This document shows positions 22,543-29,636 of a DNA stretch of 64,000 nucleotides, in pieces. The stretch spans positions 1 to 64,000 of the forward strand of contig JANSYQ010000017.1 of assembly GCA_024742305.1 (NCBI GenBank), written 5' to 3'. The position numbers were made by a program, and so were the translations under genes. Origin of the DNA: a bacterium. GTDB lineage: Bacteria; Bacteroidota; Bacteroidia; Flavobacteriales_D; Crocinitomicaceae. The notes below the pieces were generated by a model. It worked only from the letters and a program-made list of their open reading frames with translations. It was not told where the DNA came from and did not search any database. Within the stretch, counting starts at the first letter, position 1. Each line of letters begins with the position of its first letter.

Positions 22543-23136
22543 TCATCGCGAGGTGTGTCGATCTTCTAAAATACGTTCAATACTTTCCAAGCCTGAGTTT
22601 TTTGCTCGTAGCAACAGCAAAAGGTGATAGAGTAGGTCGGCTGCTTCATTTTCAAATAGTTCGATATTATCATCTTTTGCTTCAATGACCACTTCGACGG
22701 CTTCTTCTCCAACTTTTTGAGCCATTTTATTGATGCCTTTACGGAACATTTTATTCGTGTATGATTCGTCATCCTGCGAAATAATGCGTTGGGCAATAGT
22801 CGCCTCTAACTGATACAAGAAACCTTTTGACTCTGTTTCATTAAAGCATGTTTTTGCTCCTGTATGACAAACTGGACCTGTTGTAATGGCTTTGATGAGC
22901 AGTGTATCGTTGTCGCAATCTAAACGAATTTCTTGCACTAACAATTCGTTTCCCGATGTTTCCCCCTTCGTCCACAAACGCTCCTTGGTTCTGCTGTAAA
23001 AGGTCACTTTACCGGATTCCACGGTTGTATTTAACGCTTCTTCATTCATATACCCCAGCATGAGAACTTGCTGTGTGCGCGCATTTTGTATGATGGCAGG
23101 AACCAATCCATTTACCTTGTTAAAATCAATTTTCAT
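22543..23136 (-). CDS. hisIE: Bifunctional phosphoribosyl-AMP cyclohydrolase / phosphoribosyl-ATP pyrophosphatase
   Basis: Catalyses steps 2 and 3 of histidine synthesis. 197 residues. The HisI domain (1-105) has QVLMLGYMNEEAL, the metal-binding LDCDNDTLL and GPVCHTGAKTCF motifs. The HisE domain (110-197) has KMAQKVGEEAVEVVIEAK and NEAADLLYHLLLLL. Fusion of both is standard in Bacteroidota. Last gene of the his operon; overlaps hisF by 4 bases. Confidence 0.96.
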   Translation of the reverse strand: MKIDFNKVNGLVPAIIQNARTQQVLMLGYMNEEALNTTVESGKVTFYSRTKERLWTKGETSGNELLVQEIRLDCDNDTLLIKAITTGPVCHTGAKTCFNETESKGFLYQLEATIAQRIISQDDESYTNKMFRKGINKMAQKVGEEAVEVVIEAKDDNIELFENEAADLLYHLLLLLRAKNSGLESIERILEDRHTSR

Positions 23137-23885
23137 CGTACCGAAATATTTTGTGTTTTTAGATATTTTTTTAGTTGAGGAATGCCTATTTCTCCGAAGT
23201 GAAAAACGCTTGCAGCTAGTGCTCCCGTAGCATTTGTCATAGAGAATACATTCGTAAAATGAGGCATCGATCCCGCTCCGCCTGAGGCAATTACAGGAAC
23301 ACCTACTTCATTCGCTATTTTATTTGTGATGCCGATGTCGAATCCGTCTTTCGTGCCATCTCGCCCCATGGAGGTTAGTAAAATTTCTCCTGCTCCTAAA
23401 GAAACGCCTTCCTTTGCCCAGTCCAACGTTCGCCATTTGGTGACATTGCGCCCGCCTCTAATAACAACTCGGTCTTCACTTTTGACGACTTTGGTATCGA
23501 TTGCCAAAACAACACATTGACTACCCAATTCACTTGCGAGATCTCGAATTAATTGAGGTTTGTTTACGGCAGATGAATTGACGGATATTTTGTCGGCACC
23601 GGCTCGAATCAAAGCAACAGCATCTTCTACAGTTTTAATTCCACCACCGACGGTAAAAGGAATTTGTATTTCTTCGGAGATGCGGGCGACCAAATCGATC
23701 AAGGTTTTTCGTTTTTCTACCGTTGCGGTGATGTCAAGAAACACAAGTTCATCTGCTCCGGAATCACTGTATTTTCGGGCTAACTCTACCGGATCGCCAG
23801 CATCTCGAATACCTTCAAAATTAACGCCCTTCACGGTTCTTCCATCTTTGATGTCAAGACAAGGAATGATACGTTTTTTCAACAT
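23133..23885 (-). CDS. hisF: Imidazole glycerol phosphate synthase, cyclase subunit
   Basis: TIM barrel cyclase that with HisH makes imidazole glycerol phosphate and AICAR. 250 residues, normal length. Catalytic Asp residues lie in [18 protein letters not shown] and AIDTK; the phosphate-binding loops are [13 protein letters not shown] and [13 protein letters not shown]. Overlaps hisA by 7 bases and hisIE by 4. Confidence 0.97.
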
Positions 23886-24592
23886 AATGACTCAATTTGT
23901 TTTAATGATAACTTGTTCTCGTACAGCGCTTTTCCGATAATGGCGCCGGAACACCCAATCGCTTTGAGTTGTTCCAAATCATTCAGGGTTGTTACACCGC
24001 CGCTGGCGACAAGTGCTACATCCGTTTGATTCAAAATCTCTCTGTAAAGTTCAATAGCTGGTCCGGCGAGCATACCATCTTTAGAGATATCGGTACAAAT
24101 CACTTGAGAGATTCCCTTCTGTTGATATGCTTGAATAAATTCAATCACGTCCATTTCTGAGGTGTCTAACCAGCCTCCAGTGGCAATATTTCGATTTTTG
24201 CAATCTGCACCGAGAATGATTTTATCCGTTCCGTAGCGCTCCAACCAACCTTCAAAAAGCGTCGGATTCTTCACAGCTATGCTTCCTCCAGTTATCTTAG
24301 AAGCACCGCTTTCGAAGGCAATGCGTAAATCTTCATCACTGCGCAGTCCACCGCCAAAATCAACAATAAGTTGTGTTTCTCGAACAATGGACTCGAGTAC
24401 CTTGTAATTGATAATCTTTCCGGCTTTGGCACCGTCTAAATCAACTAAGTGTAAATATTTCACACCACTTGCTTCGAATTGGCGGGCAACCTCCACTGGG
24501 TTTTCGTTGTATACTTTTTTGGTTGCGTAGTCGCCTTCGGAAAGACGCACACATTTGCCATCAATAAGGTCAATCGCTGGAATAATTTTCAT
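23879..24592 (-). CDS. hisA: ProFAR isomerase (HisA)
   Basis: Amadori isomerisation of ProFAR to PRFAR. 237 residues, TIM barrel homologous to His[21 protein letters not shown] carries the first catalytic Asp; [13 protein letters not shown] carries the second; [11 protein letters not shown] and [15 protein letters not shown] bind phosphate. Overlaps hisH by 4 bases. Confidence 0.97.
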
Positions 24593-25167
24593 AATTCAAT
24601 AAAATTTTGAAGAATTTTCGAACCTACATCACCGGACTTCTCAGGGTGAAACTGTGTTGCGTAAAAATTGTTTTTCTGCAAGGCAGCGCTGAAATCCAAC
24701 ATGTAATTGGAAATAGCAACGCTTTCCGCAGATATTTCTGCATAATAGCTGTGCACGAAATACACATCTTCGGTTGGTTGAATTCCATCAAATAAAGCAC
24801 CATCAACTTTATTGAAATTGTTCCATCCCATGTGCGGGACAGGTTCTTTCGAAGGGAAGGCAAGTACGCGGTTTTTAAAAACACCCAAGCACAACGTGTC
24901 GTTTTCTTCCGAATACGAGCAAAGTAGTTGTAGTCCCAAGCAGATGCCCAGAACAGGTTGTTTCAATTCAATTATTGTCTTGTCTAAACCTTTTTGACGC
25001 AGGAAGCGCATGGCAGAACGCGCTTCTCCAACGCCAGGAAAGATTACTTTGTCTGCGTTCCGAATGACTTCTTTATCGCTAGTGATTACCGCTTCGCAAT
25101 TCAAACGCCTGAGGGCATTGTACACCGAACGACTGTTTCCAGCATTGTATTCAATAATTGCTATCAT
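24589..25167 (-). CDS. hisH: Imidazole glycerol phosphate synthase, glutaminase subunit
   Basis: Class I glutamine amidotransferase that supplies ammonia to HisF. 192 residues. The nucleophile Cys is in [13 protein letters not shown], and the His/Glu of the triad in [28 protein letters not shown] is the usual start. Four-base overlaps with hisB and hisA. Confidence 0.97.
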
Positions 25168-26255
25168 AGAACTCCTTTTGTGCTTGGGATTGTATTGTTA
25201 TTTGATTTTTGAACTGCCATTTTTAGCGCTTTCGCAAAGGCTTTAAAAATGCTTTCAATTTTGTGGTGTTCGTTTTCACCTTCTGCCTTGATGTTTAGGT
25301 TGCATTTCGCAGCATCACTCAAGGATTTAAAAAAGTGCATAAACATTTCAGTCGGCACATCGCCAACTTTCTCCCGTGTAAATGATGCGTCCCAAACCAA
25401 CCAAGATCTACCTCCAAAGTCAATGGCTACTTGCGCAAGACAATCATCCATGGGCAAAAGAAAGCCGTAACGCTCTATGCCTTTTTTACTCCCAAGTGCT
25501 TCCAACAGCGTACTGCCGAGAACAATGGCAACGTCCTCCATAGTGTGGTGCTCATCAATTTCTAAATCTCCTTCGACCTGAATATCAAGATCGATATTTC
25601 CATGACGGGCAATTTGTTCCAACATGTGGTCGAAGAATCCTAGTCCAGTGCTGATGCTACTTTTACCGTTTCCATCTAGGTTTACGGTCACAGAAATTTG
25701 TGTTTCGTTTGTATTTCTCTGCTGGGAAGCAATTCTAGGACGTTTTTTAAGAAATTGATAAATCTCTTGCCAGCTCGTGGATTGTAAAGCAGTTTCTCGA
25801 GAACAGTTCTCTCCGATAAAAATTCCTTGAGCACCTAAGTTCTCGGCTAATTCAATATCAGTTTCCCTGTCACCAATTACAAATGAATTGGCTAAATCAT
25901 AATTACCATAGATGTACGCATTCAACAATCCTGTTCGGGGTTTACGCGTGGGTGCATTGTCCTCGGGAAAGCTCTTGTCGATTAAAATTTCAGAGAATTT
26001 GATGCCTTCATTTTCAAATGCTTGAATGATTTTGTTTTGAGCCGGCCAAAAGGTGTCCTCGGGGAAAGACTCTGTACCCAATCCATCTTGATTTGATACC
26101 ATAACAATTTCGTAGTCAAGTTCTTGAACTATTCGAGCCAGCCATTGAAAAACACCCGGATAAAACTCCAGCTTTTCCAAACTATCCAATTGATAATCTA
26201 CTGGCGGTTCAATGACAAGAGTGCCGTCTCTATCGATAAAAAGTACTTTTTTCAT
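25164..26255 (-). CDS. hisB: Bifunctional histidinol-phosphatase / imidazoleglycerol-phosphate dehydratase
   Basis: Two steps of histidine synthesis in one protein of 363 residues. HAD phosphatase domain (1-165): nucleophile motif [10 protein letters not shown], then [14 protein letters not shown]. Dehydratase domain (about 180-363): [29 protein letters not shown] and a second [15 protein letters not shown], all metal-binding His/Glu motifs intact. Overlaps hisC by 4 bases. Confidence 0.97.
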
Positions 26256-27286
26256 AGCTTGATTTCTTTGAGTGCATTAATAAGTCGTTTATTCTCCTCC
26301 GGTGTTCCCACGGTAATTCTCAGGGTATTCGCAATTTGTTTGGAACGATTTCTAACGATAATTTTCTTTCGAAGTAATTCCGAGTAGATACGATCTGCAT
26401 CCTTCACTTTCACTAGTACGAAATTAGCTGCAGTAGGGAAGATTTGCTCGATTAGACTAATCGAACGTAACTCTTTGATGAGCATGGATCGTTCCTCCAG
26501 TAGAATTTTCGTTTGGCTATTGAATTCCTCTGTGTTGTTGAGTACACGAATGGCTTCCTGCTGATTCAGAGAACTGATGTTGTAAGGTGGCTTTACTTTA
26601 TTCAATAACTGTATTATTGATGAATTCGCGTACGCATATCCTACACGAGCCCCTGCCAGTCCTCTTGCTTTGCTTAGCGTTCGTGTTACAACCAAATTGT
26701 CGTATTTTTCGATCCAATTTGCTAGGGACTCCTGATCGCTGAATTCAATGTAGGCCTCATCTACACAAACAATTCCTTGAAAATTTTGAATGATCTCAAG
26801 CATTTTCTCAAGGTTTAAATTATTGCCTGTCGGGTTGTTTGGCGAACACAAAAAGAGCACTTTGATTTTAGCATCTTGAAAAAGGGAAGAGGTGTCTGCT
26901 TCAAGAATATCAAAGTTTCCATCCAAGGGAATTTTTACAATCCCCACATTGTGAATGCTTGCAGAGACATCATACATGCCATAAGTAGGCGAGAAGGCAC
27001 CAATTTTGTCCTTTCCCGGTTCACAAAAGATCCGCAGCAGCAGATCAATCACTTCATCACTTCCATTTCCTATGAATACATTGTCGGATGAAATGTTTGA
27101 TTGTTTTACAAGTACAGTTTTGAGTTTTCGCTGCTGCGGATCAGGGTATCTATTATAAGTTCCGAAAGGATTTTCATTAGCGTCTAAAAACAAGGCATCA
27201 CTACCGGAAAATTCATCCTTGGCACTGGAATAGGGAACCAATGCACGTATGTTCGGACGCGTCCATTGTTCAATTCTGTTCATCAT
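26252..27286 (-). CDS. hisC: Histidinol-phosphate aminotransferase
   Basis: PLP enzyme converting imidazole acetol phosphate to histidinol phosphate. 344 residues. [20 protein letters not shown], and the PLP-Lys motif [19 protein letters not shown] are all present. Two adjacent Met codons start the frame (27286 or 27283). Overlaps hisD by 17 bases. Confidence 0.96.
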
Positions 27287-28559
27287 TCAAAGCTTTTAAT
27301 CGTACGGTAACGGCGTTTTTGTGCGCCTGTAGCTCTTCCGCTTCTGCCATTAATTCAATGGAAGGACCTAGGCTCAACATACCATTTGCCGTAATTTCTT
27401 GATAGGTAATTTTTCGAACGAAACTGTCCACCGAAACGCCACTGTAATTGCGGGCATAACCGTTTGTGGGTAATGTGTGATTGGTTCCGCTCGCGTAGTC
27501 TCCAGCACTTTCACAGCTGTAATTTCCGAGAAAAACGGAGCCTGCATTAATCACTTTATCACCAAGTTCTTGCGCGTTATCTGTATTGATGATTAAGTGC
27601 TCTGGTGCGTAAGCATTACTGAAATCCATACAGGTTGACATATCATTCATTAAGATGCTCAAACTGTTGCTTAGTGCTTTTTCGGCAACTTCTTTACGGG
27701 GAAGTAGCTCAAGTTGCTTTCGCAAAGCATCGTTTGTTCTCTCGATGATTTCAGCATTATCCGAAACCAAAACTACTTGGCTGTCAGCTCCATGTTCTGC
27801 CTGAGAAAGAAGATCTGCGGCTATAAACTCCGGATTGGCGGACGCATCGGCAATGATCAATAACTCACTTGGGCCAGCCGGCATATCGATGCCCACACCT
27901 TTTTCAAGCGCCAACTCCTTCGCTTTGGTCACATATTGGTTCCCAGGTCCGAAAATCTTAGAAACAGCAGGTACGGATTCCGTTCCAACGGTCATGGCTC
28001 CAATAGCTTGTGCACCGCCTACTTTGAAAATCTTATCAATTCCAACGCGTTTCGCCGTGTACAATATCGCTGGATTGATTTCACCATTTTTATTGGGAGG
28101 AGTACAAAGTACGATTTCATTGCATCCAGCAATTTTAGCCGGAATCCCCAACATGAGAATGGTAGAAAACAGTGGTGCGGACCCTCCCGGTATGTACAAT
28201 CCCACTTTTTCGATAGCCACAGACTTTCTCCAACAGGCAACTCCGGGTGTGGTTTCAATTGTAGGTTCTTCCACCAATTGTGAGCGGTGGAATTTTTCGA
28301 TGTTAGCGAATGCGGTGTCAATGGCAGCGGCCAATTCATCAGAAACGCTGGCTTGAGCCATTTCATCTTTGGACACTTGTAAATCATTCAGTTGGCAACC
28401 ATCTAGAAGCTGTGTGTAACGGAAAAGCGCACGATCTCCGTTGCGTTCGACATCTTGCATTATAGTTCGAACACCTTCTTCTAAGATGCTTTGCTCAATG
28501 GATGGTCGCTTTGTTAGCTCCGACCATGTTTGCTTTTTGGGGTTGTTGTACAATTTCAT
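27270..28559 (-). CDS. hisD: Histidinol dehydrogenase
   Basis: Zinc enzyme of 429 residues that oxidises histidinol to histidine in two NAD-linked steps. GLYIPGGSAPLFSTILML, KVGGAQAIGAMTVGTES, MPAGPSELLIIAD and LLSQAEHGADSQVVLV are the family signatures; the latter holds zinc ligands Gln and His. C-terminal SAGDYASGTNHTLPTNGYAR also matches. 10 bases separate it from hisG. Confidence 0.97.
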   Translation of the reverse strand: MKLYNNPKKQTWSELTKRPSIEQSILEEGVRTIMQDVERNGDRALFRYTQLLDGCQLNDLQVSKDEMAQASVSDELAAAIDTAFANIEKFHRSQLVEEPTIETTPGVACWRKSVAIEKVGLYIPGGSAPLFSTILMLGIPAKIAGCNEIVLCTPPNKNGEINPAILYTAKRVGIDKIFKVGGAQAIGAMTVGTESVPAVSKIFGPGNQYVTKAKELALEKGVGIDMPAGPSELLIIADASANPEFIAADLLSQAEHGADSQVVLVSDNAEIIERTNDALRKQLELLPRKEVAEKALSNSLSILMNDMSTCMDFSNAYAPEHLIINTDNAQELGDKVINAGSVFLGNYSCESAGDYASGTNHTLPTNGYARNYSGVSVDSFVRKITYQEITANGMLSLGPSIELMAEAEELQAHKNAVTVRLKALNDEQN

Positions 28560-28569
28560 AACGATACTT

Positions 28570-29427
28570 TTATGCGACCATTTTGTCGATTGGAATGATT
28601 AAAATGCCTTCAGCACCAGCTTCTTTCAATGAGTCAATTACTTCCCAGAATTGATCTTCGTCAATAACAGAGTGCAACGAGCTCCATCCTTCTTCTGCCA
28701 GCGGCATTACCGTAGGGGATTTTAACACGGGCAAAATGCTACTGACTTCCTCAATTTTATCGTTGGGCACATTCATTAGCACATAGCGCGTATTTTTCGC
28801 TTTCAGTACGGCTTCTATTCGAAAGATGAATTTGTTCAATAGTTGCTGTTTTTCTGTAGGCAGAGATGGACTCGCCGCCAAGACTGCTTGGGAAGTGAAC
28901 ATGACCTCCGTTTCTTTTAAGCCGTTTTTGAAAAGGGTAGAACCCGTGCTGACGATATCGCAAATCCCATCAGCAAGTCCGATATTTGGCGCTATTTCCA
29001 CTGATCCGGAAATAGTGTGAATCTCGGCGTTTACATTATACTTCTCCAAGTACTTACGAACCGTATTAGGGTAGGAGGTAGCGATTTTTTTACCTTCAAA
29101 AAAAGTAACACCTTCTCCGTTCGCATCTTTTGGTACGGCGAGTGATACCCGACATTTGGAAAAACCGAGGGGAGAGATGATATCAATCTTTTTGTCTTGC
29201 TCAATGAGCAGGTTTTCTCCGACAATCGCAATGTCAACGATGCCGTCTTCGAGATACTGAGGGATATCGGAATTTCGGAGGAAAAAGACTTCCATGGGGA
29301 AATTTGTAGCGGGCGCTTTCAGTTGGTCGCGACCATTATCAATTTTTATTCCACACGATTTCAATAGTTTGAGGGAGTCTTCATTCAATCTCCCGCTTTT
29401 TTGGATGGCTATTTTTAGCTTACTCAT
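28570..29427 (-). CDS. hisG: ATP phosphoribosyltransferase (long form)
   Basis: First, committed step of histidine synthesis, usually feedback-inhibited by histidine. 285 residues from the ATG at 29427 (MSKLKIAIQKSGRLNEDS), the conserved family start; an in-frame ATG at 29457 is closer to the attenuator and less likely. The catalytic domain has SYPNTVRKYLEKY and SGSVEIAPNIGLADGICDIVSTG. The C-terminal about 80 residues form the ACT-like regulatory domain of the long, hexameric HisG (SLKEAGAEGILIIPIDKM). First gene of the operon, controlled by the attenuator immediately upstream. Confidence 0.97.
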   Translation of the reverse strand: MSKLKIAIQKSGRLNEDSLKLLKSCGIKIDNGRDQLKAPATNFPMEVFFLRNSDIPQYLEDGIVDIAIVGENLLIEQDKKIDIISPLGFSKCRVSLAVPKDANGEGVTFFEGKKIATSYPNTVRKYLEKYNVNAEIHTISGSVEIAPNIGLADGICDIVSTGSTLFKNGLKETEVMFTSQAVLAASPSLPTEKQQLLNKFIFRIEAVLKAKNTRYVLMNVPNDKIEEVSSILPVLKSPTVMPLAEEGWSSLHSVIDEDQFWEVIDSLKEAGAEGILIIPIDKMVA

Positions 29428-29442
29428 TTTATTTTCAATAAA

Positions 29443-29453
29443 GTCTGAGTAAA
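29443..29453 (-). promoter_or_regulatory. Alternative pairing segment downstream of his terminator
   Basis: In the minus-strand RNA this segment (TTTACTCAGAC) is perfectly complementary over 11 bases to 29491-29481 (GTCTGAGTAAA), which is the 5' arm and loop of the terminator hairpin. It can therefore form a third mutually exclusive structure, just before hisG. Confidence 0.6.
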
Positions 29454-29465
29454 CCAATGGGTACG

Positions 29466-29496
29466 AAAAAACCCGCCTGATTTACTCAGACGGGTT
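29466..29496 (-). terminator. his operon attenuator terminator
   Basis: On the minus strand AACCCGTCTGA pairs with TCAGGCGGGTT (11 base pairs with one G-U) around the loop GTAAA, followed by a U run. It lies between the leader peptide and hisG, so transcription of the operon has to read through it. The 5' arm CGTCTGAGT (29492-29484) can pair instead with ACTCAGGCG (29543-29535) inside the leader ORF, the antiterminator. Confidence 0.92.
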
Positions 29497-29522
29497 ATAT
29501 ATTTTGTTCAATTACGACTATA

Positions 29523-29585
29523 TCATTCCACGCTCGCCTGAGTGCAAGTATTAGAATGATGATGATGTAATTGTGTTGTTATCAT
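29523..29585 (-). CDS. hisL: Histidine operon leader peptide
   Basis: A 20-codon ORF (MITTQLHHHHSNTCTQASVE, stop TGA) upstream of hisG, too short for usual gene finders. Codons 7-10 (29567-29556) are four consecutive CAT His codons. A ribosome stalled there for lack of charged tRNA-His covers ATCATTC (29560-29554), which otherwise pairs with GAATGAT (29528-29522) in a pause hairpin; the freed ACTCAGGCG (29543-29535) can then pair with the terminator 5' arm and let polymerase pass into hisG. This is the classical attenuation logic; the sequence shows all elements, but transcription control is inferred. Confidence 0.9.
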   Translation of the reverse strand: MITTQLHHHHSNTCTQASVE

Positions 29586-29604
29586 TTTCCTGTTGTAACG
29601 GATA

Positions 29605-29636
29605 CAAACTTATGAAGAAATTTTTCGTGGTGGAAA
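29605..29636 (-). promoter_or_regulatory. Promoter of the his operon
   Basis: On the minus strand TAAGTTTG (29612-29605) is a perfect TAnnTTTG -7 element; TTTC (29636-29633), 20 bases upstream, is a one-mismatch -33 element. Transcription would begin near 29600, about 15 bases before the leader peptide ATG. Confidence 0.7.

Follow-up and report, generated by a model that had tools for sequence, protein, structure and literature searches.

The region upstream of hisG in the window (the whole stretch of DNA analysed here, 64,000 nucleotides in length) raises the question of how a his operon of Bacteroidota is controlled by the RNA that precedes it, and whether the short stretch between the terminator and hisG takes part in this control. 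In the his attenuator of E. coli and Salmonella (RF00514), a leader peptide with a run of histidines, a pause hairpin, an antiterminator, and a terminator are located upstream of hisG. Attenuation across bacteria was reportedly treated by Lopatovskaya et al. in 2010. For Bacteroidota, few papers on leader-peptide attenuation were found in the portions of the mainly open-access literature that were searched. In Flavobacterium psychrophilum, hisG has been described as carrying a structured 5' element that recurs as a conserved feature across other genera and matches no Rfam family, and strong clues to leader-peptide attenuation were reported for the amino-acid operons of this species in general (PMC9723704, in the parts available). 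This element is associated with the same gene and likewise comes from a flavobacterium, but those parts of the main text contain no anatomy of the element, no alternative pairing partners, and no link to translation.

The his operon and its leader region

The window encodes a complete his operon on the minus strand in the order hisG-D-C-B-H-A-F-IE, with all genes matching NCBIfam models above the cut-off and the hisG ATG located at 29427. The closest named hisG records (among 80 of 277 relatives) are from flavobacterial MAGs, such as Fluviicola sp. XM-24bin1, the HisG of which is 88% identical. From 29612 to 29427 on the minus strand, a TAnnTTTG box, a leader ORF, a pause hairpin, segment A, the terminator, its U run, segment D, and the hisG start follow one another. 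The features are as follows.

29605..29612, minus strand: TAnnTTTG (-7) box of a Bacteroidota-type promoter, TAAGTTTG (sequence and recurrence of the motif in relatives)
29523..29585, minus strand: leader ORF of 20 codons from ATG at 29585 to TGA at 29523, peptide MITTQLHHHHSNTCTQASVE, containing CATCATCATCAT (sequence, translation, and His-run leaders in relatives)
29556..29567, minus strand: four consecutive CAT (His) codons (sequence and translation)
29522..29560, minus strand: pause hairpin, ATCATTC (29560-29554) with GAATGAT (29528-29522), enclosing segment A (MFE fold)
29535..29543, minus strand: segment A, ACTCAGGCG, 5' strand of the antiterminator (sequence, folding, and statistics of upstream partners for B)
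29470..29496, minus strand: intrinsic terminator hairpin B:C, 11 bp with the loop GTAAA (AACCCGTCTGA GTAAA TCAGGCGGGTT; fold and terminator search)
29479..29491, minus strand: segment B, GTCTGAGTAAATC, comprising the terminator 5' arm, the loop, and the first 2 nt of the 3' arm (B:D pairing, compensatory changes, and likeness to the start)
29470..29480, minus strand: segment C, TCAGGCGGGTT, 3' arm of the terminator (terminator search)
29466..29471, minus strand: U run of the terminator (sequence and terminator search)
29443..29455, minus strand: segment D, GGTTTACTCAGAC, able to pair alternatively with B or with the hisG start (B:D, p = 0.005 at this locus; controls; compensatory changes; D:start fold)
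29415..29427, minus strand: segment S, ATGAGTAAGCTAA, hisG start codon and first codons, paired with D in the predicted OFF state (folding and complementarity)
28570..29427, minus strand: hisG, ATP phosphoribosyltransferase, first gene of the operon (TIGR00070, 185.2 bits; cut-off, 75.75)
22543..28559, minus strand: hisD, hisC, hisB (bifunctional), hisH, hisA, hisF, and hisIE (ORFs with NCBIfam matches above the cut-off)

The antiterminator is formed by ACTCAGGCG (29543-29535) and CGTCTGAGT (29492-29484) and includes one G-U pair. Segment B is a partner of A, C, and D, and its TGAGTAAA is similar to the hisG start. The promoter, the leader ORF with its four CAT codons, the pause hairpin, the antiterminator, and the terminator with its U run had all been described in the initial annotation, and every one of them was found at the positions given there on the minus strand. 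Its account of an attenuator therefore holds but was incomplete: segment D and the mimicry of the start codon had been missed, although D lies within the low end of the range that it covered.

The leader RNA is markedly more stable than shuffled sequences (z = -5.08; none of 200 shuffles was equally stable). No Rfam family, T-box included, matched the 64-kb window at the gathering level; the low-score list consists of nine entries, mostly chance matches by the tool's own statement. RF00514 (His_leader) gave a full-length match at this locus of 26.8 bits. The locus shares with the E. coli and Salmonella attenuator a leader with a run of His codons, a pause hairpin, an antiterminator, and a terminator before hisG, but it scores below the gathering score of 49 for the enteric leader and is preceded by a Bacteroidota promoter.

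Conservation of the leader upstream of hisG

Of 60 relatives, 30 had a HisG match; in the order this held for 53 of 249 genomes and in the phylum for 188 of 218. The phylum set consisted of the upstream regions of 60 better-scoring places from the 188 HisG genomes; 80 named loci of 277 were kept. After one locus with <100 nt upstream (L083) and six duplicates were dropped, 202 unique hisG upstream regions were obtained, in a sample weighted toward close relatives of the HisG of the window. A His-run leader was present in 186 of these, a U-tailed terminator in 182, and both in 176; the 26 loci without a leader or terminator by our rule were excluded from the pairing and folding counts. A TAnnTTTG motif is located 8-60 nt 5' of the leader ATG in 139 of the 176 loci (10.6 expected). 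An upstream partner for B was detected at p ≤ 0.05 in 124 of 176 loci; only 42 loci reached p ≤ 0.01, for which the shortness of A may be the reason. The His-codon runs and conserved stems that the initial annotation had suggested looking for thus occur in relatives.

A covariance model built from 32 leaders, that of the window included, had only one match at E ≤ 0.01 in the genome of the window, namely the present locus (E = 1.1e-18). In the 60 relatives, it detected 27 places at E < 1e-7, each next to a HisG match, several of these leaders having themselves served as input for the model, and across the class matches were found in 9 of 99 genomes at E ≤ 0.001. From alignment A1, L058 and L066 (of 34 picked loci) were left out as divergent. 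A His-run leader without a terminator by our rule precedes hisG in four loci of family f14 and three of family f19 (L259, L261, L262, and L264; L237, L245, and L246); the working mode of these leaders is perhaps translational. No His leader was found in the seven loci of families f20, f21, f28, and f35.

Ribosome position and termination

The RNA made before C exists was folded with the RNA up to the front of the ribosome masked. Upstream pairing of B, be it with A or elsewhere, had a median probability of 1.0 for a ribosome on the last His codon, 0.05 for one at the stop codon, and 0.50 without a ribosome, the low value at the stop codon being partly produced by construction because a ribosome at this position covers A. 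The probability exceeded 0.5 in 174, 29, and 88 of the 176 loci, respectively, and the values for the window were 1.0, 0.02, and 0.49. A His-codon leader ORF and an intrinsic terminator are thus accompanied by an antiterminator that excludes the terminator and depends on where the ribosome stands, the last of these by folding only.

These states suggest the following order of events in a first, transcriptional layer (layer 1). When histidine is scarce, the ribosome would stall on the four His codons and block the pause hairpin, and A:B would form and pre-empt the terminator B:C, so that transcription continues into the his operon. With ample histidine, the ribosome would reach the leader stop codon, A would be covered or folded away, B:C would form, and transcription would end. 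Leader-peptide attenuation of a Bacteroidota his operon, as proposed in the initial annotation, is strongly supported as a model by the joint presence of leader and terminator in 176 of 202 upstream regions and by the folding with a stalled ribosome in 174 of 176 loci. This layer follows the classical attenuation logic; it is not new in outline and has already been hinted at in print.

Segment D is complementary to the terminator apex

For each locus, the best ungapped duplex between B and the stretch from the terminator to hisG was compared with those obtained from 200 dinucleotide shuffles of this stretch. The B:D duplex passed the p ≤ 0.01 level in 121 of 176 loci and the p ≤ 0.05 level in 131, whereas reversed and complemented versions of B reached p ≤ 0.01 in only 2 and 4 of 175 loci, respectively (the stretch was too short in one locus). 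The duplex did not reach p ≤ 0.01 in the other 55 loci. The distance from the terminator to D varies from 11 to 50 nt among the 121 loci.

The apex pairs vary among loci on both sides of the duplex: GAGTAAA/TTTACTC occurs in many loci, GAGTACA/TGTACTC in Flavobacterium, GAGTATA/TATACTC in L131, L144, and L213, GGCTTTC/GAAAGTC in L058, and GAGACAAT/ATTGTTTC in L230. At position -4, which lies outside, pairing is seen in 5 of 121 loci. B scored higher with its own D than with a D from a locus with another apex in 88% of 12,830 comparisons (ties counted as half). Changes were placed on a tree of 94 HisG proteins, i.e. those of the 121 B:D loci with a full HisG. Two-sided changes kept the pairing in 34 cases and broke it in 2, and one-sided changes kept it in 68 and broke it in 34; when partners were shuffled among loci, 7.8 ± 2.4 two-sided keeping changes were obtained, with a maximum of 14 in 200 shuffles. 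These pair counts lean toward pairing, as the 121 loci were picked for B:D pairing, the register maximizes pairing, and the shuffles ignore relatedness.

Segment D is also complementary to the hisG start

A gap of 12-20 nt separates the 3' end of D from the start codon of hisG in 98 of 121 loci; in the others it is 23-37 nt. When the first 300 nt of hisG were scanned for complements of D, the best one started at base 2 of the start codon in 82 of 94 loci, and D scored higher with its own start than with starts carrying other codons 2-3 in 79% of 10,116 comparisons. In the window, the D:start hairpin consists of UUGGUUUACUCA and UGAGUAAGCUAA, and the pairing reaches to 29457. In the folding of the 121 loci, the 9-nt start region is paired with D with a mean probability of 0.70 (median, 0.85). 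For the nine bases beginning at the start codon, the mean probability of being unpaired is 0.22 when D is free, compared with 0.49 when D is masked and 0.48 when it is shuffled, and masking of D helps to keep the start region unpaired in 99 of 121 loci.

The second codon of hisG, where it encodes serine, is AGT or AGC in 87 of 87 genes, matching the need for pairing. Serines after codon 2 are encoded by TCN in 1445 of 2140 cases, and the serine of the QKSGR motif in 24 of 88; slow exchange between the two groups of serine codons may be a partial cause of the bias at codon 2.

Because B resembles the start, the complementarities of D to B and to the start are not independent findings. They can be told apart by the 3' end of D, where GAC pairs with GTC of B and lies outside the start, and by loci in which D follows only one of its partners. 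Among the cells at positions 3 to 7 in which B disagrees with the start, D follows B in 95 and the start in 20; at position 2 (8 versus 1, with wobble to B) and at position 8 (27 versus 9), D more often follows the start. L127, L113, L211, and L043 are among the loci in which D pairs with the start against B at a position. In the genus with MKRL/MERL starts (L058, L060-L064, L066, and L067), B:D is retained and the start is not copied; L058 and L060 are the only ones of these in which D pairs with the codons that directly follow the start codon.

The persistence of B:D without a start copy in this genus would be expected if the hairpins containing D acted on mRNA stability or processing, e.g. 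as an RNase III-like site or a 5' stabilizer, rather than on initiation. The spacing between D and the start and the codon bias at Ser2 point instead to the start codon, and an effect on stability or processing has very little probability in our assessment. It is also unlikely that the locus is an ordinary leader-peptide transcription attenuator only, with D passive or minor and its complementarity to the start without a regulatory role. Layer 1 would suffice for regulation, D is not significant in nearly a third of the his loci and at p ≤ 0.05 in none of the ten best-scoring trpE-family places, and B:D is rare in equilibrium folding (see below); this reading nevertheless leaves unexplained the excess of B:D over both controls, the double compensatory changes, the near-constant distance between D and the start in most loci, and the position of the start as the best target of D. 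The comparison shows both the B:D and the D:start complementarities and their conservation.

Energies of the alternative states and a proposed link to translation

Equilibrium folding ignores the order of synthesis, and folding of truncated transcripts and of forced states was therefore added. For the 121 loci, with the RNA 5' of the front of the stalled ribosome masked, the median energies were -23.3 kcal/mol for A:B, -29.6 for A:B with D:start, -30.4 for B:D, and -36.8 for B:C with D:start. B:D was more stable than A:B in 120 of 121 loci. B:D and D:start are mutually exclusive, and B:D was more stable than A:B with D:start in only 79 of 121 loci, the two states being near-isoenergetic. B:C with D:start was the lowest state in 108 of 121 loci; hence, the ground state is predicted to be the terminator with a closed start. 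In equilibrium folding of the whole leader, the mean probability was 0.94-0.96 for B:C and 0.01-0.02 for B:D (0.26-0.36 for B:D in the window); A:B did not appear, nor did B:D in most loci. Since B:D is rare at equilibrium, it would have to be kinetically trapped.

We propose that D serves as an anti-start strand, made after the terminator and before hisG, in a second layer of control (layer 2). In leaked transcripts, in which B:C is folded, D would pair with the hisG start codon and switch translation off. After antitermination, B would not be locked in B:C when D emerges, which happens before the start codon is made; D would then displace the weaker A from B by way of the unpaired rest of the loop, and the start codon would stay free. 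The terminator loop and arm would have to resemble the hisG start because B must compete for D. In this layer, we infer both how the steps follow one another and how translation is affected. Taken together, a two-layer ribosome-mediated attenuator, which combines transcription attenuation with D-linked control of hisG translation, is the reading that we favour (probability, roughly 0.6). In a sharper form, D would shuttle between the apex of the flavobacterial his terminator and the hisG start codon with its first codons, of which the apex would be a molecular copy; the transcriptional decision would thereby extend to translation, antiterminated mRNAs being born open and leaked ones born closed. 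This form is put forward tentatively, with slightly less than even odds.

The opposite sense of action has little probability. In that case, the loop of the formed terminator would grab D, as a pseudoknot or by strand invasion, and thereby repress hisG, and A:B would release D; D can indeed pair with the exposed loop as well as with the arm and lies close to the start codon. However, D also pairs with the start codon, so that D bound elsewhere should free the start, and on geometric grounds a 5-nt loop could hardly hold an 11-13 bp duplex while the stem remains closed. An early idea of this kind, in which the terminator loop represses by holding D, was dropped when D proved to be complementary to the start codon.

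Action in trans, with the terminated leader RNA serving as a small antisense RNA whose loop acts on D of hisG or of other mRNAs, is extremely improbable. Terminated leaders should abound at ample histidine, but binding of D would then free the start, which is the wrong direction; moreover, pairing in cis is possible in every read-through mRNA, and D-like 11-mers are not enriched in the genome of the window. A search for D-like sites with TTTRCTCAGRC gave 12 matches in this genome, two of which are D itself and the complement of B, compared with 10 for the reversed pattern, and this candidate was rejected.

In the enteric his leader, we know of no D segment and no copy of the start codon. Neither was found in the mainly open-access literature on his attenuators of Bacteroidetes and Flavobacterium, sequestered start codons, and coupling, as covered by titles and the openings of abstracts. 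D and the start-codon copy thus appear to be a new part, of which the anatomy is well supported and the second function, as modelled, is plausible.

The closest parallels come from Bacillus subtilis. At vmlR, stalling in a leader ORF sets an antiterminator, and unswitched read-through transcripts keep a hairpin that blocks initiation and is opened by induced pairing (PMC9226507). vmlR thus shares with the proposed device the antiterminator set by leader stalling and the initiation-blocking hairpin in unswitched read-through RNA; it differs in that antibiotics are sensed and the Shine-Dalgarno sequence rather than the start codon is hidden, and a terminator segment copying the start was not seen in the parts of that report considered. 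At tlrB/yxjB, ribosome stalling in the leader governs both a terminator and a hairpin in which the SD sequence and the first codons are hidden (PMC6851288); in the parts available, this system differs in that no overlapping antiterminator was identified, NusG pausing is needed, and the signal is an antibiotic. The trait common to systems of the vmlR/tlrB type, a hairpin hiding the initiation region in read-through mRNA, was found for hisG by folding only. In Flavobacterium johnsoniae, structure around the start codon tunes initiation, and the phylum is mostly without Shine-Dalgarno sequences (PMC6847099, in the parts available).

The outcome expected from this model, a start that is closed in leaked mRNA and open after antitermination, would make repression tighter and pass the decision on. 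If the proposal is correct, the textbook attenuator would become a two-step device in which one RNA strand reports antitermination to the start codon, and the second codon of an enzyme gene, restricted to AGT or AGC, would be tied to an upstream terminator loop. It would also provide a case of initiation gating without a Shine-Dalgarno sequence and a compact model of leader-peptide attenuation for Bacteroidota.

Distribution of segment D

At p ≤ 0.01, the window's genus had D in 17 of 19 loci (its own included), and the rest of its family in 18 of 29. By NCBI names, Weeksellaceae had it in 27 of 28 loci and Flavobacteriaceae in 23 of 34; among the class-level families, it was present in 3 of 3 loci of f16 and 14 of 21 of f17. 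D was found in none of the 20 loci of the class-level families f14, f15, f18, and f19 at this threshold, despite their His-run leaders. Occurrences in Saprospiraceae (1 of 4), Bacteroidales (2 of 2), Chitinophagales (1 of 1), and Flammeovirgaceae (1 of 1) are all from MAG-titled records, the names of which can be wrong. On this distribution, D seems to be an addition, found mainly in flavobacteria, to an attenuator that is more widely present in Bacteroidota.

Five Sinomicrobium loci (L119, L120, L123, L125, and L143) possess a His leader and a terminator and have no significant D. Two of them (L120 and L143) carry, by visual inspection, a different G+C-rich inverted repeat between the terminator and hisG.

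Probable attenuators of other amino-acid genes

The genome of the window (G000) contains his and trpE-family genes. A family search gave no match for prephenate dehydratase in this genome, and its sole match to ilvD was below the family cut-off (310 versus 618 bits); some amino-acid pathways may be missing in this organism. The searches for homoserine dehydrogenase, prephenate dehydratase, and ilvD yielded side observations only.

A leader with adjacent Trp codons and a terminator were found at all ten trpE-family loci (L166-L175, with that of the window's own genome, L175, included), at L171 only with one mismatch allowed, and L166 seemingly contains two attenuators in tandem. These loci are the ten best-scoring places of 14 genomes; weaker places, including the best of the other four genomes, lie outside the set.

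Ile/Val-rich leader peptides (MKQELNNIIIVIIISALTG; MKNANIISIINHRQ) and terminators precede ilvE-like genes for class IV aminotransferase-like proteins in L270 and L277; the identity of the gene was checked with Pfam in L270 only, and the gene in L277 starts 243 nt after the match. In L162 and L164, two tandem terminators and short Phe/Tyr-rich ORFs were seen by eye upstream of prephenate dehydratase genes. Finally, leaders with runs of Tyr codons (e.g. MILKTNTAYYYSSH and MISTVNNYYYYHTPQAER) and a terminator are located directly upstream of a gene for a biopterin-dependent aromatic amino acid hydroxylase in L267, L269, and L275 (identified by a PF00351 match in L269 and L275 only), and these leaders are likely to represent a tyrosine attenuator of phenylalanine hydroxylase.
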